NCBI GenBank assembly: GCA_964016985.1
Contig: OZ024827.1
Coordinates: 17,055,374 to 17,119,373, forward strand
Direction of reading: 5' to 3'
From: Anodontia alba
Lineage: Eukaryota; Mollusca; Bivalvia; Lucinida; Lucinidae
Length of the DNA stretch: 64,000 bases
Shown: positions 1,797 through 61,316 of the stretch, piece by piece
How positions within the stretch are numbered: position 1 is the stretch's first letter
Layout of the letters: every line of letters begins with the position of its first letter
The notes under the pieces: generated by a model
Databases searched by the model: none
What the model was told of the DNA's origin: nothing
Seen by the model: the letters and a program-made list of their open reading frames with translations, nothing else
Program-made: the position numbers and the translations under genes

Positions 1797-1887
1797 AAAT
1801 AGTTCAACCATTTTTCTTTAGGAATATCTATATCATGTAGCCTGACTTACCTAAATTCGAAAATGGACTCTTCCAATAAATAGTGTA

Positions 1888-3161: not shown

Positions 3162-3220
3162 TAGAAGAGTTTATTCAGTCTTTAATGGATTCGGGAATTG
3201 ATACACTTTCAGAGGAGATA

Positions 3221-10839: not shown

Positions 10840-12873
10840 TTACGAAGAGGCCGTCATTGAGTCTGAGGCCCGAACCGCCGTCGTGCAATTAAAGAGTGAA
10901 GCATAGCCATCAACAATGATTGGGTTGACAACAACTAGGCATGTAGTCTGCCGCATAATATCCAGGCTATAGCCAATTCTTTTATAACGGTTAATAAGTT
11001 TTCTAAATGGCTCCGAAAAATAGATTTTCCTACAATTTTTCTAAATCTGTACACTAGGTCACCGTAAAAGTCTGGTTCCGATATACCTTGTTGCAGACTG
11101 ACGCTTTATTTTTCTAGCCAAAAAAAAAAAAAAAAGGTAAGAGAAAAGTCCAGGGAGTGCCACAATCACAAACCGCAGCCCTTTCCAGACCCAAGAGGAA
11201 GAGGAAACCGACAAATCCAAACAAGCACAAATCGATCAAACGTATGAAAAGCACTAAGATTAGCTCTCTCTTCCCCAAGCGAGGTAATCGCAATGCTAAA
11301 AGGATTGAAAACACACAAGAACAAAATGGCACAAGGTAAGACATACAACAAATCGCCTCGTAGAATAAACCACAAAGCACCAAAGATTAAGACTAACACC
11401 GGGACCACCGCCTTAGAACGGTAGCAAGGCACTGTGTCTGCGATAAAATTTCGAAAACGCCTTATGAAGTTTAAAATAACGAGAGCCCTGCCTAAGAAGT
11501 TTGGCAGTAACGGCTTTACTACGGTAGTTAAAATCACTAAGATTTGAAGAAGCTCTGGCGAATCTAATAAATTGAGATATGTATACCCCATATAAGGTAC
11601 GCCGGGGGACATCGCCATCCAGAAAAGGGAGATTGAATATATATAAATCAAAATCGTCCCGTTTATCATAAATTTTGGTGGAAACTGTACCATTAGATAT
11701 ACATAGATTTAAATCCAAAATAGGTGCCTCGGTATCGGAAGAATTTGCTCTATTTAATTGGAGCTCTGTAGGGTATATGCGGTCCACAATTTGGTCAAAG
11801 TAAATATTGTCAATATTTAATAAATCATCAAGGTATCTTGAAGTTGAATTTAAAGCCTTGATAATGTCAGCCTGATTTTCACGTGAGAGAGACTTCATGA
11901 AATCTCTCTCATAACAACAGAGAAACAAATCTGCAACAAGAGGAGCATAATTAGTTCCCATCGGAATACAAACAGTTTGCTTATAAAGTTTAGTTCCAAA
12001 TCTAATAAAAATATTATCCAAAAGATAAACAAGGGCATCACAGACTTTTTGACACGACCATAAATTGTGATTATTGTATACATTAGATGTGAAAAGAGCA
12101 CATTCTTCGTTGCAAGCCAAATATTGGGTATTCTCCCGAATAAACGTTCGTTAATTAAATCAATAAGTTTATATTTTCTAAGATGATGAGGTAACGTAGT
12201 ATACAGTGTAGAAAAATCATATGTAGACAATTTAGAAACCTGACAGTTTATAGATTTAAATTTATTGAGACCATCATTGGAATTTTTAATTGACCAAAAA
12301 TAGTACATTCTGTCCCTTTCGTAAACAGTATCATAGTATCTAATCCAGTGTTTTTTAACAGCAGTAAGGCATTAAGTTAGCAGTTTGGACAAAACAGTTG
12401 TCGTACATGAATTAGAATTAGCAATGAAACGTGTTTTGTAAGGTCGTTTATGAAGTTTCGGTAACCAATATAACGTAGGAAGTCTGCCTTGCTTTTCTTT
12501 ATTACTCACTGCAAATTTAGCAGTAATATCGACAGAATGGGTATTAACAATATCTCTCTCGTCAGTAGAAATCCGTTCATATGTTTTGGTACTACCAAGT
12601 TCTTGTATTAGAGTATTGATATAATAAAGTCGTCACACAACAACAACATTATTAGAAGCTTTATCAGCTGGGGCCTTGGATACCTTGTTTCAAATATCGA
12701 AAAGATAATTTAGGCTTAGGATGGAGAAGAGCAAGGTTATTAGAATAAAATAACACACGTTCATCAATGATCTTAAAAAGCATTATTTTCCAATTATTTA
12801 AAGCATTAGACTCAACATGCTTTCGTTTAGTTAAATCTAGCAGTAGAACGGGGAATCTGTAAAGAAGAAGCAA
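10840..12873 (-). pseudogene. PLE reverse transcriptase, decayed
   Basis: Reading 5' to 3' on the minus strand: an N-terminal KRKHVESNALNNWK block, PADKASNNVVVV, TLYWLPKLHKRPYKTRFIAN, motif A as TYDFSTLYTTLPHHL, the IPMGTNYAPLVADLFL block, and the YLDD catalytic motif in SRYLDDLLNID. The distal segment QQGISEPDFYGDLVYRFRKI lies beyond the nested insertion, and the C-terminus ends in RASDSMTASS at about 10843. Several stops and frameshifts are present (for example near 11025 and 12130). I see no GIY-YIG endonuclease between the RT and the stop, so the lineage looks endonuclease-less, or the domain lies elsewhere. In the cell such an enzyme copies its RNA into chromosomal DNA. This copy is dead. 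Confidence 0.87.
11119..11412 (-). mobile_element. PLE 3' UTR fragment nested in the PLE
   Basis: The GTAAGAGAAAAGTCCAGGG end is preceded by a run of 15 A, and the other end stops at ACCGCCTTAGAACG. It splits the RT frame between KFYRRHSALL and SLQQGISEP. It has the same relative orientation as the host PLE, so it is either a self-insertion or a template switch during reverse transcription. Confidence 0.85.
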
Positions 12874-13760
12874 AATGTAGCCTAATAGGAGAAATAGTAA
12901 TTTTGAATCTATTAGTGATACTCATATAGTTGTACAGGCAATAATACCATAAAGCAGTATTCGTACCATCTGTTATAGGCAGTAAGTAGCGATGCAAACA
13001 GGCGACAGGACCAATGCATACAGAGTATAACAACAGCCGACAATACATAACTAAGTCTAATACAAGTATAAAGAAACGTAAAGTAAGAAAAAGTTATAAA
13101 CGGGATACGAACATCGGTAAATATCTAACCTTCAATGAGGTATAAATTAGAATCATGAGGAAGAGAAATACGAAATGTGATTGTAAAGTGCAAACTCTGG
13201 CACTTGAAATAATAACACCCTTACAACCATTTTGATAAAGTATAGCATTCGAGGATTAAAAAATTTCATAAACACGTGTAACCTGCTTGATTTAAAATCA
13301 CTTAGATGTGTGTTATTTATTTATTATTATTTAAATCAGGAATTAAACATTTAATCCACTATTACACACACTCCATTATAACTGTGCAAGAACGTTTGCT
13401 GGCGCTTCATCTTTATAGATTAATTAATATAATGAGAGTAAAAAAGACAGTTATAGTAGACAGTGATGGATAGATAAAGAAATTTCACAGTATTGTTATA
13501 CTTGACTATTATTTTGTTCTTAATTTAAAACATGTGATAAAAGATTGGGTAAATAAAACAATGTCTGGCATTTCTTCGTCGCTCATTTTTTTTATTGGAA
13601 CATAGATTTAGAAAAAATCATTTTATAGCTTCAATCTAAGCTCAATGTGTTTTGTTTTATATAACAACTCTGATAACAATTTTGATCTTTAGAAGTGTTC
13701 CCCTTTTACCTAATACATAAGTAAGAGTAAATAAAGAAATAGATAAGAAACTGTGTCTTT
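12785..13760 (-). repeat. PLE 5' tandem repeat, inner copy
   Basis: A 976-bp unit, contiguous with the RT frame. It contains an open frame with YCRLLLYSVCIGPVACLHRY (13048-12827) leading into the RT N-terminus. Its close copy follows immediately at 13761. Confidence 0.9.
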
Positions 13761-14736
13761 ATTTTCCGATTATTTAAAGCATTAGACTCAACATGCTTTC
13801 GTTTAGTTAAATCTAGCAGTAGAACGGGGAATCTGTAAAAAAGAAGCAGAATGTAGCCTAATAGGAGAAATAGTAATTTTGAATCTATTAGTGATACTCA
13901 TATAGTTGTATAGGAAATAATACCATAAAACAGTATTTGTACCATTTGTTATAGGCAGTAAGTAGCGATGCAAACAGGCGACAGGACCGATGCATACAGA
14001 GTATAACATTAGCCGACAATACATAACTAAGTCTAATACAAGTCCAAAGAAACGTAAAGTAAGAAAAAGTTATAAACGGGATACGAACATCGGTAAATAT
14101 CTAACCTTCAATGAGGTATAAATTAGAATCATGAGGAAGAGGAATACGAAAGGTGATTGTAAAGTGCAAACTCTGGCACTTGAAATAATAACACCCTTAA
14201 AACCATTTTGATAAAGTATAGCATTTGAAGATTAAAAAGTTTCATAAACATGTGTAACTTAATTTATTTAAAATCACTTAGATGTGTGTTATTTATTTAT
14301 TATTATTTAAATCAGGAATTAAACATTTAATCCACTATTACACACACTCCATTATAACTGTGCAAGAACGTTTGCTGGCGCTTCAACTTTATAGATTAAT
14401 TAATATAATGAGAATAAAAAAGACAGTTACAGTAGACAGTGATGGATAAATAAAGAAATTTCACAGTATTGTTATACTTGACTATTATTTTGTTCTTAAT
14501 TTAAAACATGTGATAAAAGATTGGGTAAATAAAACAATGTCTGGCATTTCTTCGTTGCTCAATTTTTTTATTGGAACATAGATTTAGAAAAAAAACATTT
14601 TATAGCTTCAATCTAAGCTCAATATGTTTTATTTTATATAACAACTCTGATAACAATTTTGATCTTTTGAAGTGTTCCTCTTTTACCTAATACATAAGTA
14701 AGAGTAAATAAAGAAATAGATAAAAAAAAAACAACG
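13761..14736 (-). repeat. PLE 5' tandem repeat, outer copy (pLTR-like)
   Basis: Matches 12785-13760 with a constant offset of 976 bp and only scattered substitutions. The copy stops inside the beginning of the RT frame, as expected for a pLTR: a partial upstream copy truncated within the ORF. Confidence 0.9.
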
Positions 14737-14982
14737 TGTCTTTATTTTGTTTCTTTTTTGACAACTCTTTTGAAAACTAAGAATTCATTTATTCACTTTA
14801 TAATTCAATAAGAATACAAAAAAAGTAAAAAAAAATATTGCATAATTGAACTTAGAATTTATTCAATAAAATGTATAATTTAATCAAAATATTCAGATAG
14901 TTAGGTAAATCAATGGACACTTTGTTAGATTATATTTATTTCCCCCTTTCTGGCCCCACCTAAACAGACTTTAGACAATGAT

Positions 14983-15609: not shown

Positions 15610-15758
15610 TAAATGGTTTGTGAAGACACTCATTTCAGATAAAATCTTCATCAATATTGCCTTTCCTTTTAACAATTACATTACAGGTCACCGTCAAATA
15701 CAAATAAACACTTATTTAGAGTGTATTTTATTCATATTTTTCAGCATACTCTATTACC

Positions 15759-15987
15759 ATGGACAGAAAACCTATTTTTGCTTTATTCTTTATCCTGTTG
15801 CTGATTTCTCCATATCCGATCCTGGCAGCCTCTGTGGAGAAGGAAACCGCTAGAAAAAGAGACAAACGTGTTCCTATTGCGCTGCCGTTGGTATACGTGG
15901 GAGCTTCTGTTAGTCCTTGGGTTTGGGCTGCCCTTGTGGCAGCATTTGGCGCAGCAGCACTGGCTGTAGCACGTGTAACAAGGGTGT
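15759..15987 (+). CDS. Big defensin (BigDef-1), coding exon 1
   Basis: Encodes residues 1-76 plus one base of codon 77. Residues 1-24 are a signal peptide with core FALFFILLLISPYPILA. Residues 25-37 are an acidic/basic propeptide ending RKRDKR, a furin-type site. From residue 38 runs the hydrophobic N-terminal domain (PIALPLVYVGASVSPWVWAA and following, ending ARVTR), which in big defensins aids membrane binding and self-assembly. The start sits in ACCATGG, 14 bases after a splice acceptor (TATTTTTCAG at 15744), so an untranslated first exon is likely. The donor GTATCC at 15988 gives phase 1, the only one of three nearby GTs that keeps frame with exon 2 at 28409. Spliced, the two exons give 117 residues, about 80 of them mature, the usual length. 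Established for the family: secreted antimicrobial effector of blood cells and epithelia. Confidence 0.9.
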
Positions 15988-16059
15988 GTATCCTTTTCAA
16001 GCGCCATTACATATACATTAACCTTCATCACCCTGCTGGGAACAAAATTCAGCCGGCGA

Positions 16060-16238
16060 CACACTGATTATATTTTTCTTATTATTCCCAGAAAATAGAC
16101 TTTGACATTTCGTGCAAATTGTCTTCGTAGGAGACGATTTGCATGAAGTGTCGGTCTACTTTCCAGTAAAAATAAGAAACAAAATATTTCGAAATGTAGT
16201 CTGCTGAAATTTTTACCCATGCATTCTACGCGTTAACT
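16060..16238. mobile_element. Palindromic MITE family C, copy in BigDef-1 intron
   Basis: The arms carry GACATTTCGTGCAAATTGTC and GACGATTTGCATGAAGTGTC. The right end is AGTCTGCTGAAATTTTTACC. The corresponding element follows exon 1 of BigDef-2 (61317-61480), so it was in place before the gene duplicated. Confidence 0.8.
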
Positions 16239-16265
16239 CTCTCTCTCTCTCTCTCTCTCTCTTTT
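16236..16265. repeat. (CT)n microsatellite
   Basis: A run of CT dinucleotides. The BigDef-2 paralogue has only a short interrupted version at about 61497, so it expanded in one copy. Confidence 0.9.
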
Positions 16266-16586
16266 GATCGCAACAGACTCCCCCTCCCCCACCACCACCC
16301 CAACCCACTGCCCTAGTCACCCTGGGGAATTTCGGTGGGCATAATTTTGTAAAACGCATTTAAAATCCTGTAGAATCAAACATATTAATAATTTTGCCGT
16401 TAAGGCGTTTACCTCGTGGCGGCCTGCTGAGCTTCATGTAGTTTTATTAGGGTTTTCTACTGCAAATTCTAAACTATCCGTCATCTTTGTTTCTTCATGA
16501 TGTTTGAAAGTGTTTTGATTGTTTTTCTATGTTGAGCAACTGACGAGCAAGAATCGAACTATTATGTGTAGCAGGAACGGTATCAC

Positions 16587-16836
16587 CATCACGAAAACAA
16601 GCCTATATAATTTTGACCCTGTTAAACCCCACTTTTATATAATAAAACGGGGCTGACAGGGGTATACATTATTTTTCTTATTTTGCTAAAAAACATAGAT
16701 ACTTGGTACTCGCTAGCGAGTACCCACAATCAATGTTTGAACAGAAATATGAAAAATATTAGAATTTTTTATCTGCTGAAAATTTTCATTTTTTGGTTGT
16801 AAATTTTCAGTATATTTGAATAGGCGTGTTTTCGCA
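16587..16836 (-). mobile_element. MITE family A, copy 2
   Basis: Begins CATCACGAAAACAAGCCTAT and ends TTGAATAGGCGTGTTTTCGC. The central hairpin is shortened to TACTCGCTAGCGAGTA. Confidence 0.88.
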
Positions 16837-16952
16837 AAGTAATCTACACGTTACTAGTCTAAGTGAGTCTATAGGATCATGATTATACCTAGTTAACAGA
16901 ACATAGCTGTTAGTGACTCGGCTTTTCCTAATTGCAGCATAGACCTTTGATA

Positions 16953-17200
16953 TTAAGCCGGTGCGCGACAAAATCTACAATAACACATTTGCGACCAGCA
17001 AAGACTCAAGTCAGTCTGCACATCCATCCAGTATGGTTAACTTGAGCTTTAGCCTTTCTCTCTTTGCATAATCTGACGGCTGCAGAAGGCTCATGCGACA
17101 AGCGAAGACTCTGATCAGACTATGCGGGTGCACAGGCTGATCCGATTCTTTGATGATCGCTAAGGTGTTATTGTAAGTTTTGTCTTATGTTGGCTCATAA
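16953..17200. mobile_element. MITE family E (GAGCC..GACAAAAC ends)
   Basis: The left end TTAAGCCGGTGCGCGACAAA and the complement of the right end, TTATGAGCCAACATAAGACA, are inverted repeats, followed by CAATAACAC in both. The interior has CTGATCAGAC..ATCCGATTCTT hairpin-like blocks shared with the copies at 17883, 27100 and 53387. Confidence 0.7.
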
Positions 17201-17461
17201 TCATATAGTATACGTACTATGGAACCATATGAACTACTAGTAATCTCCTTTAAATCATGATTTTTGTTGAGAACTACGTGTAGTTTATTCACAGTCTCAA
17301 TACTGGGCTGACTGATGGTTGTCTAGACCGGGCGTCATCTTGAAGACTCTTCCTACCACAATGGAACTTCCTTGCCCACCTTTACACATAGGCATCAAAT
17401 GGAGAAAGTTCACCATAAACTGCAGTCATTTAGGGATGTTTTACGGAGACCGACCTTCTAG

Positions 17462-17739
17462 CATCACGAAAACATGCCTATATAATTTTGACCCCCTTCA
17501 ACCCCACTTTCATATAGTAAAACTGGGGTTTACAGGGGTATACATTATTTTTCTTATTTCTGCTCAAAAACATAGATTGTGGGTACTCGTTAGAACCGCC
17601 TCGCCGAGGCGGTTCTAACGAGTACCCACAATCTATGTTTTGAGCAGAAATATGAAAATATCAGAATTTTTTATCGGAAAATTTCCTTTTTTTGGTTGTA
17701 AAGTTTTCAATATATTTGAATAGGCGTGTTTTCGTAATG
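17462..17739 (-). mobile_element. MITE family A, copy 3
   Basis: A complete reverse-oriented copy of 278 bp with a perfect central hairpin (CTCGTTAGAACCGCCTCG / CGAGGCGGTTCTAACGAG). Confidence 0.93.
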
Positions 17740-17882
17740 CGTCAAAAACTGGATCATTGCTCTCCAATCATTTTTGTCCGTATTTCTTTTCGTGGGGTGG
17801 GGAGGAAGACACAAAAATCGCTTAAAGTCTTTGTTAACAGTTATCTAAAATTCAGCAAAACCTCTAAAATAAATAAAGATAC

Positions 17883-18090
17883 TTTGAGCCAGTGCATGAC
17901 AAAACGTACAGAATGGCATTCGCCCAGTCTGATCAGAGTCTTCTCTGTCCTCATAAAGAAAGCTTGGGTCCTTAGCTACCAATTGAGCGCACAGCAAAGA
18001 CGCTGATCAGACTGAGCGGATGCCCAGGCTGACCTGAGTCTTCGCTGGGCGCACATGCTTTTTTGTTGGTTTTGTCATGCGCTGTCTCAT
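17883..18090. mobile_element. MITE family E
   Basis: Left end TTTGAGCCAGTGCATGACAA, complement of right end ATGAGACAGCGCATGACAAA. Interior CCCAGTCTGATCAGAGTCTT and the inverted TGATCAGACTGAGCGGATG. Confidence 0.72.
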
Positions 18091-18180
18091 ATATAAAATG
18101 TTAAATACAAATCCCTAGGCTACATACATGTATATCAGTAGCGAAACTTATTGATATAGCTTCGTATAAACATGTATAAT

Positions 18181-18460
18181 CATTACGAAAACATGCCTAT
18201 TCAATATATACTGAAAATTTTACTACCAAAAACTGAAAATTTTCAGATAAAAAAATCTGATATTTTTCATATTTCTGCTCTAAACATAGATTGTGGGTAC
18301 TCGTTAGAACCGCCTCGGCGAGGCGGTTCTAACGAGTACCCACAATCTATGTTTCTGAGCAGAAGTAAGATAATTAATGTATACCCCTGTAAACCCCAGT
18401 TTTTCTATATAAAAGTGGGGTTGAAGGGGGTCAACATTATATAGGTATGTTTTCGTGATG
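18181..18460 (+). mobile_element. MITE family A, copy 4
   Basis: A complete forward copy of 280 bp, ends CATTACGAAAACATGCCTAT and TATAGGTATGTTTTCGTGATG (last 20 considered), central hairpin perfect. Nearly identical to the copy at 24422-24701. Confidence 0.93.
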
Positions 18461-18625
18461 GTTTATGAAGTTTATTCTATAGATAAAGCTAGCTTGACTC
18501 GGTTATTAACCCATTTATGCCGAGTGGACTCTTCTCTAACTCTTCGGACTGGTCCAATTCCAATAGAAGGGGATCTAGATAGTTATTATTATTATGACGT
18601 TTTATAGAAAGTCCTGTATCTAATA

Positions 18626-18692
18626 CAAACATTGGAGATCCTGATCAGACGCCGCTTTCTGTGACGTCTGATCCGGGTCTGCACCGTTTGCC
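18626..18692. repeat. CAGTGTAGATC-type hairpin element
   Basis: ACAAACATTGGAGATCCTGA with GATCCGGGTCTGCACCGTTT. Inner arms CAGACGCCGC / GTGACGTCTG. Followed by the family trailer (TGTCCTTTTTATGGGATG). Confidence 0.7.
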
Positions 18693-18953
18693 AATGTCCT
18701 TTTTATGGGATGTTAGGCATAAATGGGTTAACACGCAGAAAGCGGACTGGTCGAGGCGCATCTAACTATTAATACGACTGGACTGGTCGAGGGGCATCTA
18801 ACAATTAATACGACTGACTGTCAGAAAAACTTATAAAAGCTGGATGCTCTGCTGGAGAGGCATCCGAATTAAACCTTTCAGCCTTGAGTGTCTGAAGTGG
18901 ACTCTTCCATTCTTGAATTTGAACTTGTCTACTAATACAAATAGCGGTTTCAG

Positions 18954-18984
<31 letters not shown>

Positions 18985-18991
18985 CAGAATG

Positions 18992-19055
18992 GCAAACAGT
19001 GTAGATCCTGATGAGATGGCTTCTTACGAGCCGTCTCATCTGGATCTACATTTTT
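18992..19055. repeat. CAGTGTAGATC-type hairpin, GATGAGAT variant
   Basis: Inner stem GATGAGATGGCT / AGCCGTCTCATC in place of GATCAGACGCC / GGCGTCTGATC. Both arms changed together. A poly-A run of about 28 bases precedes it (18957-18984). Confidence 0.75.
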
Positions 19056-19133
19056 AGCATATTGCATTGGTTTTGGTATGTGGGGGCTAAATGGGTTTAG
19101 CCTTCATTTCGGTAGACCAAAACATATACCTGT

Positions 19134-19443
19134 GCAAACAGTGTAGATCCAGATGAGGTGGCTCGTGACGAGCCGTCTTATCTGACCCCGAGATTATAAA
19201 ACTTTTTTCTTGCTCAGCTCAGCTGAGCTTGAAATTTTCTCTCCTAATAAATATGAAAAAGTCAACTATAGTTGGCATTTTCATATTTATTAGCAGAGAA
19301 AGTTTCATGCTCAGCTATTTTAGCAAGAAAGAATTTGGCATGATTGTTAGTAATTTGAGATTTATTAGCATGAAAAAGTTCATGCTCAGCTGAGTTGAGC
19401 ATGAAAAAAGTTTTATAACCTCGGGCCCAGATCTACGCTGTTT
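19134..19443. repeat. Hairpin element split by a nested palindromic MITE
   Basis: GCAAACAGTGTAGATCCAGA starts the outer hairpin and CCAGATCTACGCTGTTT closes it. Inserted within is 19187-19424, whose ends CCGAGATTATAAAACTTTTT and AAAAAGTTTTATAACCTCGG are inverted repeats and whose interior pairs ATGAAAAAGTC..ATTTTCATATTTAT and CTCAGCTGAG motifs. Confidence 0.75.
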
Positions 19444-20146
19444 AACATTCGACTGACATCCCTGTTTGCAATATTATATGTATCGAAAGTCAAAGACAGA
19501 AGAGTTCGTCTCAGTAACTCTTTGAAGAAAGGATTGAAGGAAGCACCTATTCACTCGAACAAATAGGTTAGACATGCCTCAGCAAGCAGTGTAGATCTTG
19601 AACTGTCAGTCATCCAACAGATTTTAGACACATCAACGGGTAAAGAAAAGGACACGTTCAAAACTCAGGACAAATATGGTAAGCAGTTAAGGTGTCTCAG
19701 TATTGAGTTTAAGCAGGGTGGCTGTCATGAATGAAGACTGGTCGGAGACGTTCTCATTCAGAAGTTCAGTGTGGTATGAGATGTCATAAATGAATTTCCT
19801 AAAGATTATTGTGCTAATGTTATATGCTGAATTTATCTGACAATAAAGGCCATATGGGGAGGTGGAAAATAAAATGATTCAAAACTCCCGAGTCTTGTGA
19901 CCTAATCAATTTACACTACGCTATACATATTGACAAGTCCTAACCAATCAAAATGGCAAATGCCATATGTCTTTGTAAATAGTACAAATAGCCTCGACGA
20001 GGCAAGACAAAAAAAAATGTGGAAATAATATAATAACGAGCTTAGGCTACCTGCGAAGCAGGTCGCCACTGCGCAGCAGGTGGCGGAGCTTAAGCTCGTA
20101 CTATAGGTATCGTGAGTCTCTCACATACTATGCAGAAGAATTCGCA

Positions 20147-20325
20147 TGCGGCGGCTGACTGGTTTCCCAAATCTACAGCGGAGTGTATCGGCTTAATGTT
20201 GAACCAAAAAACCAACGCTAATTTATGTCCGTTGCCAGTCTGAGTTCCGAAAAATATGATGATCAGATACGCTCCGCTGCAAACATGGAAAGCCAGTCAG
20301 CCGCCGCAAGCGATCTCATTGGCTG
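20147..20325. mobile_element. Long palindrome, MITE-like
   Basis: Arm GCATGCGGCGGCTGACTGGT..CAGCGGAGTGTATC pairs with GATACGCTCCGCTG..GCCAGTCAGCCGCCGCAAGC. The loop is about 60 bp. A smaller palindrome (AGCTTAGGC..GCTTAAGCTCGT) precedes it at 20038-20100. Positions 19445-20146 otherwise hold nothing I recognise. Confidence 0.65.
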
Positions 20326-20764
20326 TAATGAATCGTATAGCCAATGAAATAGAAGGATACATTTTTACGACATTTACACAGATGAATGCGTGACTGATCT
20401 GCGTTTTAGCCGCCATATTTAATCTGTGACTTCTCTCGCATTAAACAACATTTTCGGCGTATTTAAGTGTAAATACTGAAGTTTTGCCGTAAAAAATGGA
20501 TTACATTCCTACAGCACATAACAGGAATTATGCATGGAGAAGAATTTATCGCTGACAACATGATAAAGGTAGGACATGCGGTGATTTCAGTTGACTGGCG
20601 ATCAGCTGATCGTTCGCGGTATAGCTAAAAGGAGAAATCGATTTTTTTTTTTGACGAAATCAGCCTGTAAAAATAAATTTTCGGGGTACATGCATAATTC
20701 CTTTTACTAGATCTATAAGACTAAATATTTATTTATACACATGTAACAGGTGAAAAAAAATTAT

Positions 20765-20838
20765 GCCACGACCGGGGATTGAACGCGGGCCGTCCGCGTG
20801 ACAGTCGGACAGTCTACCACGTTGCTATAAGAGCCGGC
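20765..20838 (-). tRNA. tRNA-Asp-like sequence, probably a pseudogene or SINE head
   Basis: 74 nt on the minus strand. The anticodon loop CTGTCAC gives GTC (Asp) on a stem TCCG/CGGA. The T-arm CCGCG-TTCAATC-CCCGG has one mismatch. The acceptor stem pairs only in its first four positions (GCCG with TGGC plus a wobble) and the D-arm is poor. It lies 42 bp from a mariner. A functional tRNA is unlikely; a tRNA-derived repeat is the simplest reading. Confidence 0.4.
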
Positions 20839-20880
20839 TTATCTGAACGCAGTTCAAATATATCATATACCAACATCGTA

Positions 20881-22167
20881 CGAGGGTGAGTCAATAAGAA
20901 ACCAGCCTAACTTATTTCCGGTTGAGATCCACCTTTTCTTTTTCGATGTAAGTGTCCTCTAGTATGGTGCACTTAAACCAATGGTGTTCAAGTGCCATCA
21001 GCCCAGAACTGAAAAAGTCAGGGTCCTTTCCATTGACCCACTCCTCAACTGCCGTCACGACTTCTTCATCAGGCCGGAAATGAAGTCCACGGATATCCTT
21101 TTTCAAGTTTGGGAATAGGAAGAAGTCACTAGGAGCTAGGTCAGGCGAATAGGCAGGATGTGGTATAAATTCATACCCGTTTGGCTCTACAGCATCCATT
21201 GCAACTTTGCAAGTGTGGACTCTCGCGTTGTCCTGTTGCAACAAAACACCTTTAGAGAGTTTACCTCGGCGTTTTTCACGGATGGCGGTTCTCAGCTGAT
21301 CTAACAAGTTTGCATAGTACACTCCAGTTATTGTACTTCTCTTGGGTAAAAAGTCCAAAATAATAACGCCTTTTGCGTCCCAAAATACTGTGGCCATCAC
21401 CTTGCCAGCAGATGGTTGCGTCTTGAACTTCTTTGGCCTGTGAGAACCAGGCCCTACCCACTGACGACTCTGAGCTTTATTCTCTGGCTCATAATGATAA
21501 ACCCAAGTCTCATCTATAGTCACCAGATGCAAAGGAAAATCATCTTTTGACCTAAAACGCTTCAACAAGGCGCTGCATACTGATGCTCCGGTTGCCATTT
21601 GCTCATCGCTAAGGGATTTGTGGACCCAACGGACTGTTAGCTTGCGCATGCCTAAACGATCATGTAAGATTGTTGAAACGCTACCATGTGAAATGCCTAA
21701 TCCCTGCGCTATTTCTTCCATCTGAATTCGTTTATCAGAGTATACCACATGCGGGATCCGAACTTTCTTACACATTTCTTCGTCGGTGGCATCTAGTGGG
21801 CGTCCAGACCTGGCTTCATCTTCTAAAGACGTTCTACCGCGTTTGAATTCCCCTACCCAGAAATTAACCTAAGCATAAGATGGTGCAGAAGACCCATACA
21901 CATGGGCTAACTCGCCGTGTATTTCCTTGCCTGTTTTACCTTTTAAATACAGGTACCGAAATACAGCACGGTACTCAACTTTAGATGAAAAGCATGCCTT
22001 TGCATCACTAGCCATGTTTGACATTCAATATATTATGAGTGAATGACACGATAAGGGTGCAATTTTGCCCTCAGGCCTAAACCATGTATTGAAACAAGGC
22101 ATGAAAATCTTGGGTATCTCGGTCTTTTGGAAACGGGATAGGCTGGTTACTTATTGACTTGCCCTCG
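20881..22167 (-). mobile_element. mariner-type transposon (copy 2 of M1) in BigDef-1 intron
   Basis: 1287 bp, ends CGAGGGTGAGTCAATAAGAA / TTACTTATTGACTTGCCCTCG (mismatched inner base), TA at 20879-20880 and 22168-22169. Same family as 1888-3161, inserted antisense in the large defensin intron. Confidence 0.94.
20912..22017 (-). pseudogene. mariner transposase, C-terminal two-thirds open
   Basis: A 287-codon frame (21775-20912) covers the second helix-turn-helix (AQGLGISHGSVSTILHDRLG), the first catalytic aspartate in VTIDETWVYHYEPENK, the second in LLQQDNARVHTCKVAMDA, and the third in YSPDLAPSDFFLFPNLKK. Exactly 34 residues lie between the second and third aspartates, the D,D34D signature of mariner proper. 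The N-terminal 80 or so codons (22017-21776) are visible in other frames but broken, so the first DNA-binding unit is not in phase. It is likely inactive. Confidence 0.9.
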
Positions 22168-22196
22168 TATAACCGTACACTGTCCAAATCGGGTAG

Positions 22197-22392
22197 TTTT
22201 CATATTTCTGCTCGAAACATAGATTGTGGTTACTAGATAGAACCGCCTCGGCCATGCGGTTCTAACGGGTACACACAATCTATGTTTTAAACAGAAATAA
22301 GAAAATCAATGCATACCCTTGTAAACCCCAGTTTTACTATATAAAAGTGGGGTTTATAGGGGTCAAAACTATATAGACCTGTTTTCGTGATG
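22197..22392 (+). mobile_element. MITE family A, left-truncated copy 5
   Basis: Starts at TTTTCATATTTCTGCTCGAA, 30 bp from the mariner end, and runs to TTTTCGTGATG. The central hairpin is mutated (TACTAGATAGAACC / GGTTCTAACGGGTA). Confidence 0.85.
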
Positions 22393-22510
22393 GTTCACTC
22401 TTAACATGTGACTACTGTGAATGTTTTCACCTCTGATAACGGATTTTCAAAAAAATACTCAAACTTATTTCAAGAAATGACAAACAAATTTCATATTTGT
22501 ATTTAGCACA

Positions 22511-22790
22511 CATCACGAAAACATGCCTATATAATTTTGACCCCCTTAAACCCCACTTTTATATAGTAAAACTGGGGTTTACAGGGGTATACATTATTTT
22601 CCTTATTTTGCTAAAAAACATAGATTGTAGGTACTCGTTAGAACAGCCTCACTGAGGCGGTTCTAAAGAGTAGCCACAATCTATGTTCTGATATGAAATA
22701 TGAAAAAATATAGGAATTTTTTATCTGAAAATTTTCCTTTTTTTGGTTGTAAAATTTTCAATATATTTGAATAGGCGCGTTTTTGTAATG
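22511..22790 (-). mobile_element. MITE family A, copy 6
   Basis: Complete reverse copy, CATCACGAAAACATGCCTAT to GGCGCGTTTTTGTAATG. Hairpin with a few mismatches. Confidence 0.9.
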
Positions 22791-23190
22791 AGAAGTTTTC
22801 ACAATAGGTGCCGCAAAAATTTTGGAATTCGGTTGACAGATGAGGATTTTATGAGCAAAAATAGTTTTGAATAGAGAATTTTCTATAGTAAAACTGCTAG
22901 CAAGGGAAGTAATATTTTCCTGCAAAATTTTAAAACTCGTATTTTATCAAAGGTACCCGAAATTGGCATAAAATGATACAAAACCCTTACCATGGTTCAA
23001 AACATTGAATTTAAGCCACAAAAGTTGTCAGAATCGGAACTTTATGATTATGGATTATCTCCTCTGCCAATGTAAACTCCCTATTCCAAATTAATTCTGG
23101 TCATAAAATTTTTATTTGTGGAACGAATTTCGAAATTTTTGCAGGGCATGTTACAGGAAATTTAGTACCAAACGTTTGTTATAAAAATCA

Positions 23191-23435
23191 CATCACGAAA
23201 ACACGCCTATGCAAAGATGTAGAAAATTTCACCTCCAAAAACTTTTCAGATAAAAACCTCTGATATTTTTCATATTTCTGCTCAAAAAAAAAGGTTGTGG
23301 GGTTCTAACGAGTACCCACAATCTATATTTTTGAGAGAAATAAGAAAAATAATGTATACCCCTGTAAACCCCAGTTTTACTATGTGAAAGTGGGGTTTAA
23401 GGGGGTCAAAATTATATAGGCGTGTTTTCGTGATG
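23191..23435 (+). mobile_element. MITE family A, copy 7, left hairpin arm deleted
   Basis: Termini intact but the first arm of the central hairpin is lost (AAGGTTGTGGGGTTCTAACG). 22791-23190 and 23436-24421 hold no recognisable feature apart from a poly-A run at 24363. Confidence 0.87.
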
Positions 23436-24421
23436 ATCTATCCTTTTCTAAGTTTACTATTAGTAATCCCCAAAATTGTGTTTTCAGAGGACAAAAAAAG
23501 CGAACATTAAGTAAATTTTCTCGTTTAAATATTTTTCCGAAACGAGATTAAAATAAATTTAAGCAAGATCACCTTAGATCTAATCACACAGCGTGCTAAA
23601 TGAGGCATAAATGTGCATATTATGACACGCGTTTAACAAGAAATCAACGGAAGTGAGAGTTCAGGGCTTTAAAGTTGATCTGTCTTATTCAAACGAAATA
23701 AAACAAAATATATCATGAACCCAGGTTGATTAAATACTAAGCGCTAGTCGTACAGTCAAATTCAGCTCGGACCGAGCTATTGATGCGGTACAGTCAGTCG
23801 GAACTGACGGGTACAATTCAAAAGGTCATGGTTTACAAAATAGAAACATGTAGAGCCTTGCAGGAAATATACATAAAAAGACAATATGTGTTTGAAAGAT
23901 TTCACGTTCAAATTATCATGAAGCTGGCCTTAATTCGGAGTATATCGACCTGGATTCATCGAGTTTACGGGCGACAAAACCAGGAAAATCACTGATAGAA
24001 CAGCACGCGATAAGGTCTACTCGAAAAAAGAACTGACCACTGTCGGAGTTTGTGAGAAGGATACAGCTAAAATATATTCATTTCTACCCCCGATGTCGAA
24101 AACCGCATTATAATAGGATATTGCGTTGCTTTCTTATCTGTTAAAATCTCAGAGCTTCTGTCGCGAATTTCGTGTTCGCTTGTGATGTTTGGGCGTACAG
24201 AATGATGGTGCTTCCGATTTGACCACTGTACGGTTATACGCTGTGATACCTATAGCCGGTGATACACTAATGTGCAAAATTTCGTGGAAAAAAATTGTCC
24301 GATGTTGTGCACTTTGCCTCGAACCTACATTTAAACTGTCCGCGACTTTGCATACCTGATGAAAAAAAAAAAAAAAAAAAAATGCATAAAATGCTTAAAT
24401 CCGTTTCATAGGTAACACCTT

Positions 24422-24701
24422 CATTACGAAAACATGCCTATTCAATATATACTGAAAATTTTACTACCAAAAACTGAAAATTTTCAGATAAAAAATTCTG
24501 ATATTTTTCATATTTCTGCTCAAAACATAGATTGTGGGTACTCGTTAGAACCGCCTCGGCGAGGTGGTTCTAACGAGTACCCACAATCTATGTTTCTGAA
24601 CAGAAATAAGAGAATTAATGTATACCCCTGTAAACCCCAGTTTTTCTATATAAAAGTGGGGTTGAAGGGGGTCAGCATCATATAGGTATGTTTTCGTGAT
24701 G
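24422..24701 (+). mobile_element. MITE family A, copy 8
   Basis: Complete 280-bp forward copy, nearly identical to 18181-18460, suggesting recent amplification of this subtype. Confidence 0.93.
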
Positions 24702-25111
24702 TTTATTTCATATTAATCGCCATAACGCACAAACCGTTGAAAATATTTTGGTAATATTTGAAATATTGATAGACACTGAAGAGACCAAGCTAATGAACTT
24801 GTCAAAAGCAAGATTTCTTGAAAGATAGTCTTGCTGAGGCAAAACTATGAAAATATGTAACTGCTCGGATTATTTTGATAATTTTTGGCTTACTGATAGA
24901 TATCGACAAGATCTTATCAATGAACTTGCTACAAATGTAGACATCGAGAAGATATAATCAATGAGCTTGTCAAATGCCAATTTCTTCGACATTAGTACTG
25001 TTACTACTATCATTCATTTACAACACAATGCCGTTAGGATTAAATTTATATACAGTCCTGCGTCTCTCCTTCACATATAATGACCTATCGCTGATAGTTA
25101 GAAATGGTACA

Positions 25112-25208
25112 TCCCAGCAGGCACATACTGCTGAAACAACGTCGATTCAACGATGACGTTGAATCAACGTTGAATCGACGCTGTTTCAACGCCTTGTGCT
25201 CGCTGGGA
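25112..25208. mobile_element. CCCAG-type palindromic MITE
   Basis: Ends TCCCAGCAGGCACATACTGC and CCTTGTGCTCGCTGGGA. The interior repeats AACGTCGATTCAACG / GTTGAATCAACGTTGAATC. Related by its CCCAGC..GCACAT ends to 9047-9153 and 62259-62370. Confidence 0.8.
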
Positions 25209-25267
25209 TTGCATGTCAATGCATTACTGCGGGTCGTGCACCTTAGCGTAAGTTGATTTTTACATTT

Positions 25268-25690
25268 TTTGCCTCGCCGAGGCTATTTATAAAGAAATCT
25301 GGCATTTGACAATTTCATCGTCAATATGTGTCTGCATCCAAAATTTATCAAAATATTCCAAGCGATTTAAAGGTATAGCGATTTTCACAAACTGAATACG
25401 GACGAACGGACACACTTCGACGAGGCTATTTATTAGAAACTCTGGCATTTGACAATTTCATTGGTTAGATCTTGTCAATACGTATCTGCATGCCAAAAAT
25501 TATCGGAATATTCCAAGCGGTTTAAAAGTTGAAGCGATCAAAGCGAGGCTATTTATAAAGAAATCTGGCATTTGACAATGCCATTTGTTAGGTCTTGTCA
25601 ATATGTATCTGCATGCGAAACAAAATCAAAATAGTCCAAGCGGTTTAAAAGTTCAGCGATTTTTACAAACTAATTACGGACGGACGGACA
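25268..25690. repeat. Degenerate tandem repeat, about 130-bp unit, three units
   Basis: Each unit has GGCTATTTATAAAGAAATCT, GGCATTTGACAAT, TCAATATGTATCTGCATGC and AAGCGGTTTAAAAG. Ends in GGACGGACGGACA. Non-coding. Confidence 0.8.
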
Positions 25691-25764
25691 TGGTGATTAT
25701 AGAGCTCTTCTCGTTAGTCCTCCTTTCGGACCGCGTTACTGCGGATCGTGCAATTTTTGTGGTG

Positions 25765-25768
<4 letters not shown>

Positions 25769-25801
<33 letters not shown>
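25769..25801. repeat. (TG)n microsatellite
   Basis: Sixteen or so TG repeats after the tandem array. Confidence 0.95.
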
Positions 25802-25802
<1 letters not shown>

Positions 25803-25846
25803 CCCTCTATTTTATGTCCCCTAAGCTCGCTAAGTACAGATAGAAA

Positions 25847-26122
25847 CATCACGAAAACATACCTATATAATTTTTACCCCCTCAAACCCCACTTTCATAT
25901 AGTAAAACTTGGGATTACAGGGGTATACATTATTTTCTTATTCCTGCTCAAAAACATAGATTGTGGTACTCGTTAGAACCGCCTCGCCGAGGCGGTTCTA
26001 ACGAGTACCCACAATCTATGTTTTGAGCAGACATAAGAAAAATATTAGCGTTTCTTATCTGAAAATTTTCAGTTTTTGGGGTTAATTTTGCTATATATTT
26101 GAATAGGCATGTTCTCGTAATG
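25847..26122 (-). mobile_element. MITE family A, copy 9
   Basis: Reverse copy, CATCACGAAAACATACCTAT to GGCATGTTCTCGTAATG, perfect central hairpin. Confidence 0.92.
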
Positions 26123-26233
26123 TAAGTATGTGGGTGCCCAGTAAAAGATACAATCAAGAAACCTCCCATGGCACCGAACAAGAGTTGAAGGACATAAACC
26201 ATTAATGTCTAGCGTCCCATAAACGGGGACTTG

Positions 26234-26300
26234 GCAAACAGTGTAGATCCAGATCAGAAGCCGCGTTCTGCGGCGTCTGATCAGGGTCTACACTGTTTGC
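26234..26300. repeat. CAGTGTAGATC-type hairpin element
   Basis: The cleanest copy: GCAAACAGTGTAGATCCAGA pairs with the complement of TCAGGGTCTACACTGTTTGC. Inner arms CAGAAGCCGC / GCGGCGTCTG. Confidence 0.88.
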
Positions 26301-26397
26301 ATGAAATACAGAAATTTCTGCAAAACTGGTAATAATAATAATAATAATAATAATAGTAATAAAACTAATCAGACACCCCTTCTATCAGAAATGAACC

Positions 26398-26642
26398 TTT
26401 TTTTTTTTTTTTTTTTTTTTTTGATTTGGGTTTTACGGCCCTTTCAAGAATATTCACTTATATCGAGCCGATCGTTCATCAAAGGCGGGGGAAAACCGGA
26501 GAACCCGGGGAAAGACCACCTGACCATCCGTAAGCAGAACTTGGCTTTCCCACATGTGACCCGATTGAGGCTCGAACCACAGCGGTGAGAAACCTAATGG
26601 ATTAAGTGTCAACTCTCCTATCCACCAGGCTACGGGAGCCCG
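26398..26642 (-). mobile_element. tRNA-headed SINE, second family (copy D)
   Basis: On the minus strand the head contains an A-box-like GTAGCCTGGTGGATAGG and a B-box-like GTGGTTCGAGCCT. The body has GGTGGTCTTTCCCCGGGTTC. The tail GGGCCGTAAAACCCAAATC runs into a poly-A of about 25 (poly-T at 26398-26422). Head and body differ from SINE A-C, but the GGCCGTAAAACC tail is the same. Confidence 0.75.
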
Positions 26643-26814
26643 TTTAATGGACCTGGTAGAAGTGTCGAGTCAGCATAAATGAACGAGAGACGATTCGGGT
26701 TAAATGACAATATAAAGCTGTTCGAGAACAGAATGAACAAATGAAAAATTCAAAGAAATGCTGACTGAAACGGTCAGTATCACAATCTTTCATGGTAGGG
26801 AGGGGATTTATTTT

Positions 26815-27093
26815 CATTACGAAAACACGCCTATTCAAATATTTAGAAAATTTCACCTCCAAAAACTGAAATTTTTTCGATAAAAAACTCTGATATTTTT
26901 CATATTTCTGCTCAAAATATAGATTGTGGGTACTCGTTAGAACCGCCTCGGCGAGGCGGCTCTAACGAGTACCCACAATCTATGTTTTCAAGCAAAAATA
27001 AGAAAAATAATGTATACCTCTGTAAACCCCAGTTTTACTATATAAAAGAGGGGTTTAAGGGGGTCAAAATTATAGAGGCGTGTTTTCGTGATG
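26815..27093 (+). mobile_element. MITE family A, copy 10
   Basis: Forward copy with termini CATTACGAAAACACGCCTAT and GGCGTGTTTTCGTGATG. Confidence 0.92.
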
Positions 27094-27099
27094 ATTTGA

Positions 27100-27290
27100 T
27101 TCATCTCATGACAAAACCAACAAATGGTGAGTGCGCACAGCGAAGACTGAGATCAGTCTAAGTATCCGCCCAGACTGATCAGAATCTGCGCTGTCCGCAT
27201 TAAGAAACCTTGGGTCCTTAGTTACCCACTGAGCGCACAGCGAAGACTCTGATCATGCCATTTTGTTGGTTTTGTCATGAAGTGGCTCAT
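27100..27290. mobile_element. MITE family E
   Basis: ATCTCATGACAAAACCAACA at the left; TGTTGGTTTTGTCATGAAGT then GGCTCAT at the right. Interior has CGCACAGCGAAGACTGAGAT and repeats of TGATCAG. Confidence 0.75.
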
Positions 27291-27294
27291 TTCA

Positions 27295-27573
27295 TATTAT
27301 GAAAACACGCCTATTCAAATATATTGAAAATTTTACCACAAAAAAAAAATGAAAATTTTCAGATAAAAATTCTGATATTTTTCATATTTCTGCTCAAAAC
27401 ATAGATTAAGGGTACTCGTTAGAACCGCCTCGGCGAGGCGGTTCTAACGAGTACCCACAATCTATGTTTTGAACAGAAATAAGGCAAATAATGTATACCC
27501 CTGTAAACCCCAGTTTTACTATATAAAAGTGGGGTTTAAGGGGGTCCAAATTATATAGGTATGTTTCGTGATG
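27295..27573 (+). mobile_element. MITE family A, copy 11
   Basis: Forward copy starting ATTATGAAAACACGCCTATT, with a near-perfect central hairpin. It directly follows the family E element. Confidence 0.9.
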
Positions 27574-27761
27574 AATGATTAATTTATACCGGCAGCACAT
27601 TTAGGTAGCATGTCCCTCTAAAACATATATACATGTACATGTACTGTACATCTATAGAAAAAGTTCAACAATTTCTATCGCATAAACTGAAACAAAAGAG
27701 CAAATAAGTTAATAAAAAATATGATAAAAATAAACGAATAAATAGTAAAATTCATTTAATT

Positions 27762-27937
27762 CTAGCAGACGACATTCACATTCTGGAACACTTTTCTTAT
27801 GATTTCCTAAAAACAGGCCTTGTCATTTTATGCAAATTATCTCCTATGGAGCCAATTAGCATGAAATGTCAAAGCATGTTTTCTGAGAAGAATAAGAAAA
27901 ATATCATCAGTTTGTCGCCTGCTGACTTTGCCCACAG
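27762..27937. mobile_element. Palindromic MITE family C
   Basis: AGCAGACGACATTCACATTC at the left and CAGTTTGTCGCCTGCTGA at the right. Inner arms GTCATTTTATGCAAATTATC / GCATGAAATGTCAAAGC. Confidence 0.78.
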
Positions 27938-27983
27938 AGTGGCAAGGTAAAAAACTTTTGAAGATACACAGCCTAGTCTCGTT

Positions 27984-28012
27984 ATCTCGAACTCCAAGGG
28001 ACAAGAACTTCC
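27984..28012. mobile_element. pogo/Tigger-like MITE terminus, remnant
   Basis: TAGTCTCGTTATCTCGAACT matches the left end of the element at 15276. The rest is missing. Confidence 0.6.
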
Positions 28013-28168
28013 GGTTTGTAGTTTGAGATGAGTCGAAATGTAAAGAATGTATAACAAACAACATCAATACTACCCTATATTTCGTTTGACCAATGCACTC
28101 GTTTGAGTTATCAATGTTTCAGGTAACAAAAGTAAACTGTAAATGTCATATGAGTTAACGCTTAGCAT

Positions 28169-28335
28169 GCTGGGTAAAATTTCAGCAGACGACACTTTCA
28201 AATATTTGTCTTAGTGTTCACAGAAAATAGGGGCTTTGACATTTCATGTAATTTGAATAATATGTGAAAAGTATTTTTTTTCTGGAACAGATAGGAAAAG
28301 TATCATCATTTTGTCGTCTGCTGAATTAGTCCAGA
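28169..28335. mobile_element. Palindromic MITE family C, 70 bp before BigDef-1 exon 2
   Basis: AAATTTCAGCAGACGACACT and ATTTTGTCGTCTGCTGAAT are the inverted ends. The inner arms are partly eroded. Confidence 0.78.
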
Positions 28336-28408
28336 GAGTGGTAACGGTTAAGAACGCTTAGTTTTACAAAAACGTTTTGCTAGAAATGACCCTTAACACA
28401 TGTATCAG

Positions 28409-28533
28409 CTAATGACAATCATTCTTGTGCCAACAACCGTGGATGGTGTCGCAGTAGGTGTCGAAATTACGAATACGTGGACTACTACCATTCAGCTGTG
28501 TGTGGAAGGTATCATTGTTGTCGCTCAAGGTAA
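28409..28533 (+). CDS. Big defensin (BigDef-1), coding exon 2: beta-defensin domain
   Basis: After the acceptor ATGTATCAG (ends 28408) the frame runs from the split codon 77 through SNDNHSCANNRGWCRSRC to CGRYHCCRSR and a TAA at 28531. The six cysteines (residues 83, 90, 94, 108, 113, 114) follow C-x6-C-x3-C-x13-C-x4-CC, the big-defensin spacing, including the conserved NRGWCR block. The disulphide core is the antimicrobial, structurally beta-defensin-like part of the mature peptide. The exon is 125 nt and sits 12,421 bp after exon 1, in the same orientation, with matching phase and no intervening stop. No other exon with this cysteine pattern was seen. The remaining uncertainty is whether exon 1 at 15759 is its transcript partner. 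Confidence 0.92.
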
Positions 28534-28612
28534 CGGAAATAGCCGGGCGGAAAGAACCGAAGAAAGTCACCGTCGATACTGCTTTTTTTTATTATCTATT
28601 TCTTTTTATTAA

Positions 28613-28618
28613 AATAAA
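28613..28618 (+). terminator. Polyadenylation signal of BigDef-1
   Basis: AATAAA, 80 bases after the stop codon, followed by a GT/T-rich stretch (TGATAGTTGAGCTCTGTCAT). It fits the 3' end of the defensin message. Confidence 0.7.
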
Positions 28619-33208: not shown

Positions 33209-33671
33209 CAGCGCTTATCAAAGTTACTTTGGAATTAATTCACTTGAAATGCCAAAGCTATTTTCTGGGGAAAATGAAAGAATATTTCAGCATATGCTAA
33301 GTATTGACTTTCTGAAAATATCAATACTAGTAGTTGACCGACGGGTTCTCGTGATCCTGCCAAGTTTGCCAGCACTTGAATTATTCTGGAACCCGACTAT
33401 TTGGTAAAAAGAACCCCGAAAGTAGTAGTTTTCCATCGCTACCATAAATATCAAACATAGATACAAAGCAATTTTGAGAGAGTTGCCTGCCCTGAACATG
33501 TAACACCCTTACCCTGGTCCTGCTGAACCCGGATATGACTGACTTTCCTTTGCAAACAGTGTAGATCCAGATCAGTTGGCTTGATCTTGATATGCACTCT
33601 TTGTCATTAAGTATGTGAATTTGTATGAACAACTCGGGTGAAGTTATCTGATTGGGTAAAAATTAGAAGTG

Positions 33672-35736: not shown

Positions 35737-35769
<33 letters not shown>

Positions 35770-36406
35770 AATTTCCCATTTAACAGGTCATTTGAATATT
35801 TCTTTATTTCTATTATTTACCATTATCTTTCTTTCTTCAGACAGGCTGGGGTGGGGAGTAAGATACCCTGGCTTGGGCAGCTTGCCCCGCACCCCTGGAA
35901 AATGGGTAAACTCAGATCAGAAAAGCTATTTAATCATTTTAACTTAATTTCTAATGCATAGGCATTACATTGATAGTAATACCTGTTTTTACCTTTTTCT
36001 TTTCACTTTAAGGGAATAGGTTAGGGCCAAAATACTGTGGTCCTAGCGGTTCACTCCCCGCCTCAGAAAGTCTTGTAAACAAAGTTTAGGAATATTATTT
36101 TTATCTTATTCCATTTGAATTTCATATTAAACAGAACATTTGAATAAATCCAGTATTAACAATTACCTGTCTTTCTTCGTACAGAAAGGGGTGGGGGTGG
36201 GGGTGGGGTGGGGAGGGTAAGATACCCTGGTCTGGACAGCTAGCTTGCCCCCCACCCCCAACCCACCCATGGAAACTAGGCAAACTGGGATCAGAAAAGA
36301 TTTTAATCATTCCGGAGATAAATTTGGGAGGGGGAGGTGTGGGGGAGGGGGTGGGGGGGGGGGGGGTGGACAGCCCAGAGGCAGCTGGCGCCACAGGCTA
36401 CTGTAT

Positions 36407-36444
<38 letters not shown>

Positions 36445-36549
36445 CTTGTATCGCAACCCCTCATCTGTCCATTCAGAGAAAAATAGGTTATGGTCGATGA
36501 ATATCCAACAGGAAAGTCTAAATAAGTGATAAACTATCCGCTGTATTTG
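33672..36549 (+). mobile_element. Foldback-type element, truncated copy
   Basis: Starts TCAAGTTTTAGCCGGTGTAA and is the reverse complement of 42892-45729 over its whole length. Built of about eight units near 350 bp, each with CTGGGCAGCTTGCCCC, AAACTCAGATCAGAAAAGCT, TTACGGGAAGG, AAATACTGTGGCC, TCTTGTAAACAAAGTT and AATTTCCCATTTAACAGG. Ends in a poly-T run (36411-36444) and a 100-bp piece of the opposite arm. G- and C-rich tracts are common. No coding. Confidence 0.85.
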
Positions 36550-45718: not shown

Positions 45719-45729
45719 CTAAAACTTGA

Positions 45730-61258: not shown

Positions 61259-61316
61259 GTATCCTTTTCAAGCGTGATTATATATACATGAACCTTCACC
61301 ACCCCGCTGGCGGCGG

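Follow-up and report, generated by a model that had tools for sequence, protein, structure and literature searches.

The genome of the lucinid bivalve Anodontia alba contains, within a 64,000-nucleotide stretch that was analysed over its full length (contig OZ024827.1, positions 17,055,374 to 17,119,373 of the forward strand; hereafter the window), two short coding segments that together resemble a big defensin, a class of antimicrobial peptides. The segments lie 12.4 kb apart, and the only donor site that joins them into a full-length product is a poor one by ordinary standards. Do they form a single gene and, if so, which splicing machinery would remove the intron between them? We find that the segments 15759-15987 and 28409-28533 are a canonical big defensin gene in two coding exons. 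By consensus matching, the phase-1 intron between them carries U12-type (minor-spliceosome) signals, consisting of a T followed by GTATCCTTTT at the donor and CCTTAAC at the branch site; it is very probably a U12-type intron, removed in all likelihood by the minor spliceosome. The kind of gene is already known, and the U12-type signals in its intron are the added finding.

A big defensin gene in two coding exons

Coding exon 1A (15759-15987, plus strand) comprises 229 nt from the ATG at 15759 and ends in phase 1, and coding exon 2 (28409-28533, plus strand) comprises 125 nt up to and including the stop codon at 28531-28533. These are exactly the coordinates proposed in an earlier note on this DNA. 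Joined in frame, the two exons yield the 117-residue precursor that it had described, with the cysteine pattern C-x6-C-x3-C-x13-C-x4-CC, and the basic processing site that it had claimed is present as ARKRDKR, preceding the hydrophobic domain. Exon 1A encodes a putative signal peptide (approximately 15759-15827, judged by eye; MDRKPIFALFFILLLISPYPILA), a propeptide that runs through KRDKR to 15869 (ASVEKETARKRDKR), and the hydrophobic N-terminal domain with its linker (15870-15987); its identification draws on profile, Pfam, structure-database and alignment support. Exon 2 encodes a beta-defensin-like domain with six cysteines. The predicted mature peptide has 80 residues and a computed pI of 9.3, and consists of a hydrophobic first half (grand average of hydropathy, GRAVY, 1.54) and a polar cysteine-containing half (GRAVY -1.32).

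Upstream of the coding region, a predicted intron of the 5' untranslated region (5'UTR) ends in a U2-like 3' splice site (AG at 15743-15744, plus strand; CATATTTTTCAG) with a pyrimidine-rich run before it. The 46 nt up to this acceptor (15699-15744) are identical in a paralogous exon, designated 1B, which is described below. Downstream of exon 2 there is a candidate polyadenylation signal, AATAAA (28613-28618, plus strand), and ATTAAA also occurs at 28608.

The spliced 117-residue product matches the Pfam family PF14862 (Defensin_big) with 30.7 bits, where the cut-off is 25; for exon 2 by itself the score is 20 bits, and exon 1 alone gives no such match. The cysteine spacing (6-3-13-4) falls within the range C-x(4-14)-C-x3-C-x(13-14)-C-x(4-7)-CC given for big defensins (PMC9786018), and the phase-1 intron is located at the 5' end of the cysteine region, as is characteristic of the family. 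A looser form of the big-defensin cysteine spacing has a single occurrence in the six frames of the whole window. The best solved structure for the spliced product is PDB 2rng (E 1.4e-31), with an alignment that is gap-free through the splice junction, followed in the structure database by Cg-BigDef5 and Cg-BigDef1 of the oyster.

When profiles were built from nine homologues, leaving out the window's own sequence, their best matches were the frame 15720-16064 for the N-terminal domain (E 2.3e-14, against 0.11 for the runner-up) and 28390-28530 for the cysteine domain (E 4.6e-24, against 0.026). The runner-up for the cysteine profile (59234-59305, minus strand, E 0.026) was taken as a chance match, and neither motif nor profile searches revealed any further clear cysteine exon or degenerate copy within the window. 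A profile search listed 52 proteins, many of which carry a big-defensin name and come from bivalves or amphioxus, the others being nameless or hypothetical. In a tree that combines the window product with 26 of the 52 matches (27 sequences in all), the window protein is placed near amphioxus and unionid sequences, and no starred branch contains it. A search for big-defensin DNA in other collections gave 95 viral-contig and 37 genome-contig pattern stretches, none of them a relative, and the window has no Rfam match at gathering scores.

U12-type signals of the long intron

The predicted intron (15988-28408, plus strand) is a GT-AG intron of phase 1 and 12,421 nt in length. When the 13 GT dinucleotides along the open exon 1 frame are combined with the eight AG dinucleotides at 28300-28429, three of the 104 pairs are in frame, all of which use the AG at 28407-28408. 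Among these 104 pairs, donor 15988, the one selected in the earlier note, is alone in retaining the entire N-terminal domain and linker, and its join to 28408 produces a linker without gaps relative to the nine homologues. As a U2-type site it is poor, ranking at the 29th percentile of the plus-strand GTs in the window when scored with generic U2 weights. By the same weights, an overlapping U2-like donor (AGG/GTGTGT, 15984-15989, plus strand; the slash marks the exon end) scores 7.1 and ranks at the 97.8th percentile. That site is of phase 0 and out of frame with exon 2, and may be a decoy or a competing donor. Ahead of the 3' splice site of the intron (AG at 28407-28408, plus strand) the pyrimidine content is only modestly lower than at the exon 1 acceptor, which gives at most a hint that a polypyrimidine tract is lacking.

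The contradiction between a poor U2 donor and its position as the sole fitting one disappears if the intron is of the U12 type. The U12 consensus is RTATCCTTT at the 5' splice site and TTCCTTRAY at the branch site. In the window, the donor that alone yields the full-length product coincides with a U12-type 5' splice site (GTATCCTTTT, 15988-15997, plus strand) with a T at position -1, and a U12-type branch site (CCTTAAC, 28391-28397, plus strand) would put its branch A at 28396, at a distance of 12 nt from the last base of the intron. Phase 1 and the T at -1 (TGT/GTATCC) agree with U12 tendencies: introns of this type show a bias against phase 0 and an excess of T at -1, and one described example begins GTATCCTTTT (PMC7367187). 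Their optimum distance from branch site to 3' splice site is 11-13 nt, and they are defined by the 5' site and the branch site, with no distinct polypyrimidine tract (PMC3584512). The sequence GTATCCTTT is found at three of the 6,987 GTs counted on the two strands of the window. Two of these sites are the exon 1A and 1B donors, which count as one event because these exons are duplicates. CCTTRAC with its branch A 8-18 nt before a potential intron end is found at four of the 7,176 AGs. The U12 call is convincing because both motifs coincide at the single position and phase that homology requires. These donor and branch signals, like exon 1B, were absent from the earlier note. A relative enrichment of minor introns has been described in molluscs, Limulus and Lingula (PMC10639083), which makes the minor machinery plausible in this host.

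If the U12 donor is conserved, big-defensin open reading frames (ORFs) that run unspliced into the phase-1 intron are predicted to continue with Cys-Ile-Leu whenever T is the first base of the split codon. With GTRAG, the usual form of a U2 donor, the second residue of such a read-through would be Lys or Glu. Four of the 52 homologues, all of which were inspected, read through the donor: P0001 and P0011 from the window itself, and P0165 and P0170 from outside it. All four continue with Cys-Ile-Leu-[Phe/Leu], including both of the outside cases, namely P0165 (...YSVTRT/CILFYF, from a 1,745-bp JGI contig) and P0170 (...YGITEG/CILLMK, from a 947-bp JGI contig). Over its first 77 residues P0165 shares 98.7% identity with P0132, a spliced protein of Ruditapes philippinarum, and it departs from that protein exactly at the split codon, where P0165 has Cys and P0132 has Ser, consistent with a codon split after T. 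The exon 1 part of P0170 has at most about 56% identity to any other of the 52 proteins and thus represents a separate lineage. Of the 6,987 GTs in the window, 14 lead into Ile-Leu-[Phe/Leu] when read in phase 1, the window's own two donors included. These observations suggest that the U12-type signals are common to a Ruditapes gene and one further lineage, in which case GTATCCTT would be expected at the exon end in the DNA behind P0165 and P0170.

The same proteins illustrate how such genes are misread in the databases. The earlier note had forecast that exon 1 would be left as a small protein of unknown kind, and P0001, the best single-sequence match, is indeed exon 1A read into its intron; P0011 is exon 1B read into its own. 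Both are assigned to a contig of 810,069 bp, presumably the one that includes this window, and both translate TGA as Trp, so that the ORF caller seems to have applied a TGA-sense code to an animal contig, and neither matches a Pfam family at E 0.001. Nine of the 52 matches lack the full cysteine pattern, and the five that are not read-throughs (P0135, P0157, P0158, P0167 and P0172) have altered, shortened or wrong-frame cysteine domains. Two of these, the Mya arenaria models P0167 and P0172, stop following exon 1 too soon, by four and seven codons, respectively (as judged by eye), and then read the cysteine exon in the +1 frame, which results in unrecognisable "hypothetical" proteins. In each of their 43-residue tails 40 residues could be compared, and P0008 and P0152, both Mya proteins, account for all 40 in the +1 frame, whereas eight shuffled tails per model reached no more than 54% (P0167) and 44% (P0172). 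The first wrong-frame residue starts at base 2 of the Ser codon that matches the start of exon 2, and the acceptor position therefore looks conserved in Mya. Models with a wrong-frame exon 2 are to be expected if gene finders miss the donor.

Several points weigh against the U12 assignment, and one rival explanation is a U2-type intron of the usual kind whose donor happens to be weak and in which GTATCCTTT and CCTTAAC are coincidental. Weak U2 donors exist, the terminal dinucleotides are GT-AG, and the strong-looking U2 donor at 15984 overlaps only 4 nt upstream of 15988. The branch region (ACCCTTAAC) agrees with the branch consensus at 7 of 9 bases, and the 20 nt before the intron AG are still 60% pyrimidine, compared with 75% at the acceptor of exon 1. 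Each motif also occurs elsewhere in the window and is not rare enough taken alone: RTATCCTTT is present six times against 2.1 expected by shuffling, and CCTTRAC-N5-18-AG five times, which is below the 10.3 expected. The class was assigned by consensus matching rather than by a position-weight classifier, and P0165 and P0170 are known as residues only, such that their Ile-Leu could also be encoded without ATC CTT. Against the U2 interpretation stand the low rank of 15988 as a U2 site, the coincidence of two U12 signals at the phase and position set by homology, and the recurrence of Cys-Ile-Leu in two read-through ORFs outside the window; we consider it unlikely.

The far better U2 donor at 15984 could be used if exon 1A were spliced to an unseen small exon of 3k+1 nt and from there to exon 2, and linker length does vary among big defensins (PMC7203481). 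Such an exon is very improbable, as the direct join already provides a linker that is gap-free against the nine homologues and 2rng. We assign a similarly slight probability to the idea that exon 1A and exon 2 were left over from two different tandem copies and do not form a single working gene. Some 45 kb downstream there is a second exon 1, for which no exon 2 is in view, a sign of a cluster in flux, and presence/absence variation and pseudogenes are known for bivalve big defensins (PMC7203481); the phases nevertheless match, the frames are intact, the splice and polyadenylation signals follow in the right order and strand, and there is no other clear cysteine exon in the window. It is least probable of all that Cys-Ile-Leu-Phe is the conserved coding tail of a retained-intron isoform and not a splice signal. 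The four residues are the same in P0001, P0011 and P0165 and similar in P0170, but by eye the similarity among the window, P0165 and P0170 ends after them, as it would in an intron, and the window DNA at this point is exactly a U12 donor. A single gene with a U12-type intron remains our preferred explanation.

The second exon 1 and the surrounding repeats

Coding exon 1B (61021-61258, plus strand) is a tandem paralogue of exon 1A within a duplicated block, and is followed by the same U12-type 5' splice site as a DNA match (GTATCCTTTT, 61259-61268, plus strand). The 32 nt spanning the donor (15972-16003) are identical in the two copies. The leader is 98% identical, with two differences in 111 nt, which is below the divergence of the non-coding flanks (P 0.003; 61 mismatches in 611 positions, the simple repeat at 16241-16319 excluded). 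The hydrophobic domain differs by 21 mismatches in 112 aligned positions and by 21 gap columns (in-frame gaps of 6 and 15 nt), a higher divergence than in the flanks (Fisher P 0.014, one of three tests and uncorrected). In exon 1B this domain no longer fits the family profile (5.1 bits, E 2.9), and no partner exon 2 was found between exon 1B and the end of the window, so that any such exon would lie outside the window. Relaxed or diversifying change in the exon 1B domain is possible from this comparison. Positive selection was considered, and the ratio of nonsynonymous to synonymous change between 1A and 1B (dN/dS 0.89) does not demonstrate it.

The earlier note had described the intron as transposon-filled. 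Self-repeats do make up 54% of it, but the whole window reaches 58.5%, so that the transposon load of the intron is the regional norm and not exceptional. A family of about 280 bp that resembles miniature inverted-repeat transposable elements (MITEs), with inverted ends CAT.ACGAAAACA.GCCTAT, has 18 copies or pieces in the window, at 745-1021, at 10 loci within 16587-27573, and at others up to 63947. Ten of the 18 are inside the big defensin intron and three are behind exon 1B; the concentration in the intron has a binomial P of 0.0007 when copies are treated as independent. The intron also harbours a mariner-type transposon (20878-22172, minus strand) with a transposase ORF at 20912-21868 on the minus strand, 91% identical to 1885-3166.

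Other repeats lie outside the gene. A satellite array at 7184-8360 consists of about 30 copies of 38-bp units, and a head-to-tail duplication of approximately 990 bp (12783-13765 and 13759-14748) is 95% identical between its copies. An inverted duplication (33668-36549 and 42892-45733) has arms of about 2.9 kb with 87% identity, which are built of diverged internal repeats. A reverse-transcriptase-like ORF at 11413-12147 (minus strand) had 7,999 relatives scored, all passing, and the 120 listed are all from ENA; it has no Pfam match at E 1e-3.

Implications and comparison with known systems

The sequence features described above suggest the following course of expression. After removal of the 5'UTR intron (acceptor 15744), coding exon 1 would contribute the signal peptide, the propeptide ending in KRDKR and the hydrophobic domain, and coding exon 2 would supply the six-cysteine beta-defensin-like domain from across the 12.4-kb phase-1 intron, which the minor spliceosome would excise. 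The 80-residue cationic peptide would then be freed by furin-type cleavage behind KRDKR, and it would presumably fold oxidatively with three disulfides and may bind and kill bacteria as known big defensins do, perhaps by forming nanonets such as those of oyster Cg-BigDef1 (PMC7203481).

With one half of the peptide encoded on either side of the intron, the capacity of the minor spliceosome would limit the amount of peptide, which is a much weaker inference than the preceding steps. Removal of U12 introns is three- to fivefold slower in vitro and at least twofold slower in cells (PMC3584512), and in human cells the stress kinase p38 increases U6atac as well as minor splicing (PMC3728624). If the intron is of the U12 type, slow removal and p38-raised U6atac would together offer a point of control over an immune effector that is open to testing; post-transcriptional gating of the peptide through such a stress-kinase link is a speculative extension. 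Counting against gating, a pan-eukaryotic survey argues that much of the evolution of minor introns may be accounted for by neutral processes (PMC10639083).

The partition of one domain per exon, in which the earlier note saw the possibility of separate shuffling, is borne out by the coding exons and their phase-1 boundary, yet it had already been published (PMC3182236, PMC7203481). Separate exons for the N- and C-terminal domains were reported for the oyster in 2011 (PMC3182236), and a 2020 review covers the conserved phase-1 intron, the three-exon layout, tandem duplication, and the debate between exon shuffling and intronization (PMC7203481). Big defensins are seen as forebears of vertebrate beta-defensins, with the conserved phase-1 intron as a main genomic argument (PMC7203481). 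Keyword searches of 5.39 million open-access papers, with subscription papers outside the scope, brought up no statement of a U12-type intron in a defensin gene.

A broader proposal can be formulated, which we put forward tentatively and hold to be possible, if rather doubtful: that the big-defensin phase-1 intron, whose position is common with vertebrate beta-defensins, is U12-type by origin, that minor splicing gates this branch of innate immunity (possibly under stress-kinase control), and that intron class is a new marker of descent. If so, wherever the intron type is retained, a class of antimicrobial peptides would be made only as fast as the minor spliceosome permits. The argument for beta-defensin descent would gain a further character, rarer than the first and at once accessible in existing genomes, and the broken automatic annotation, with read-through ORFs here and wrong-frame models in Mya, would be explained.

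Compared with U12-type GT-AG introns described elsewhere (PMC7367187, PMC3584512), the window intron is alike in its GTATCCTTTT donor, T at -1, phase 1 and CCTTAAC at 12 nt. It differs in its setting, since U12-type introns are mainly found in information-processing genes (PMC3584512), whereas the present one resides in the gene of a small secreted antimicrobial peptide. Among big defensins, that of the horseshoe crab Tachypleus tridentatus (PDB 2rng) resembles the window product without gaps in its N-terminal domain, linker length and six cysteines; horseshoe-crab genes, in contrast, have an extra phase-0 intron that splits exon 2 (PMC7203481). The clam big defensins (Ruditapes, Dreissena, Mya, Mercenaria and Meretrix), compared as proteins only, are 45-56% identical to the window product. 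Like the window gene, the oyster Cg-BigDef1 and Cg-BigDef5 genes carry the N- and C-terminal domains on separate exons and have the same class of cysteine spacing (PMC3182236, PMC9786018). The Anodontia gene is set apart from them by a 12.4-kb intron with U12-type signals, the class of the oyster intron not being stated in the cited text.

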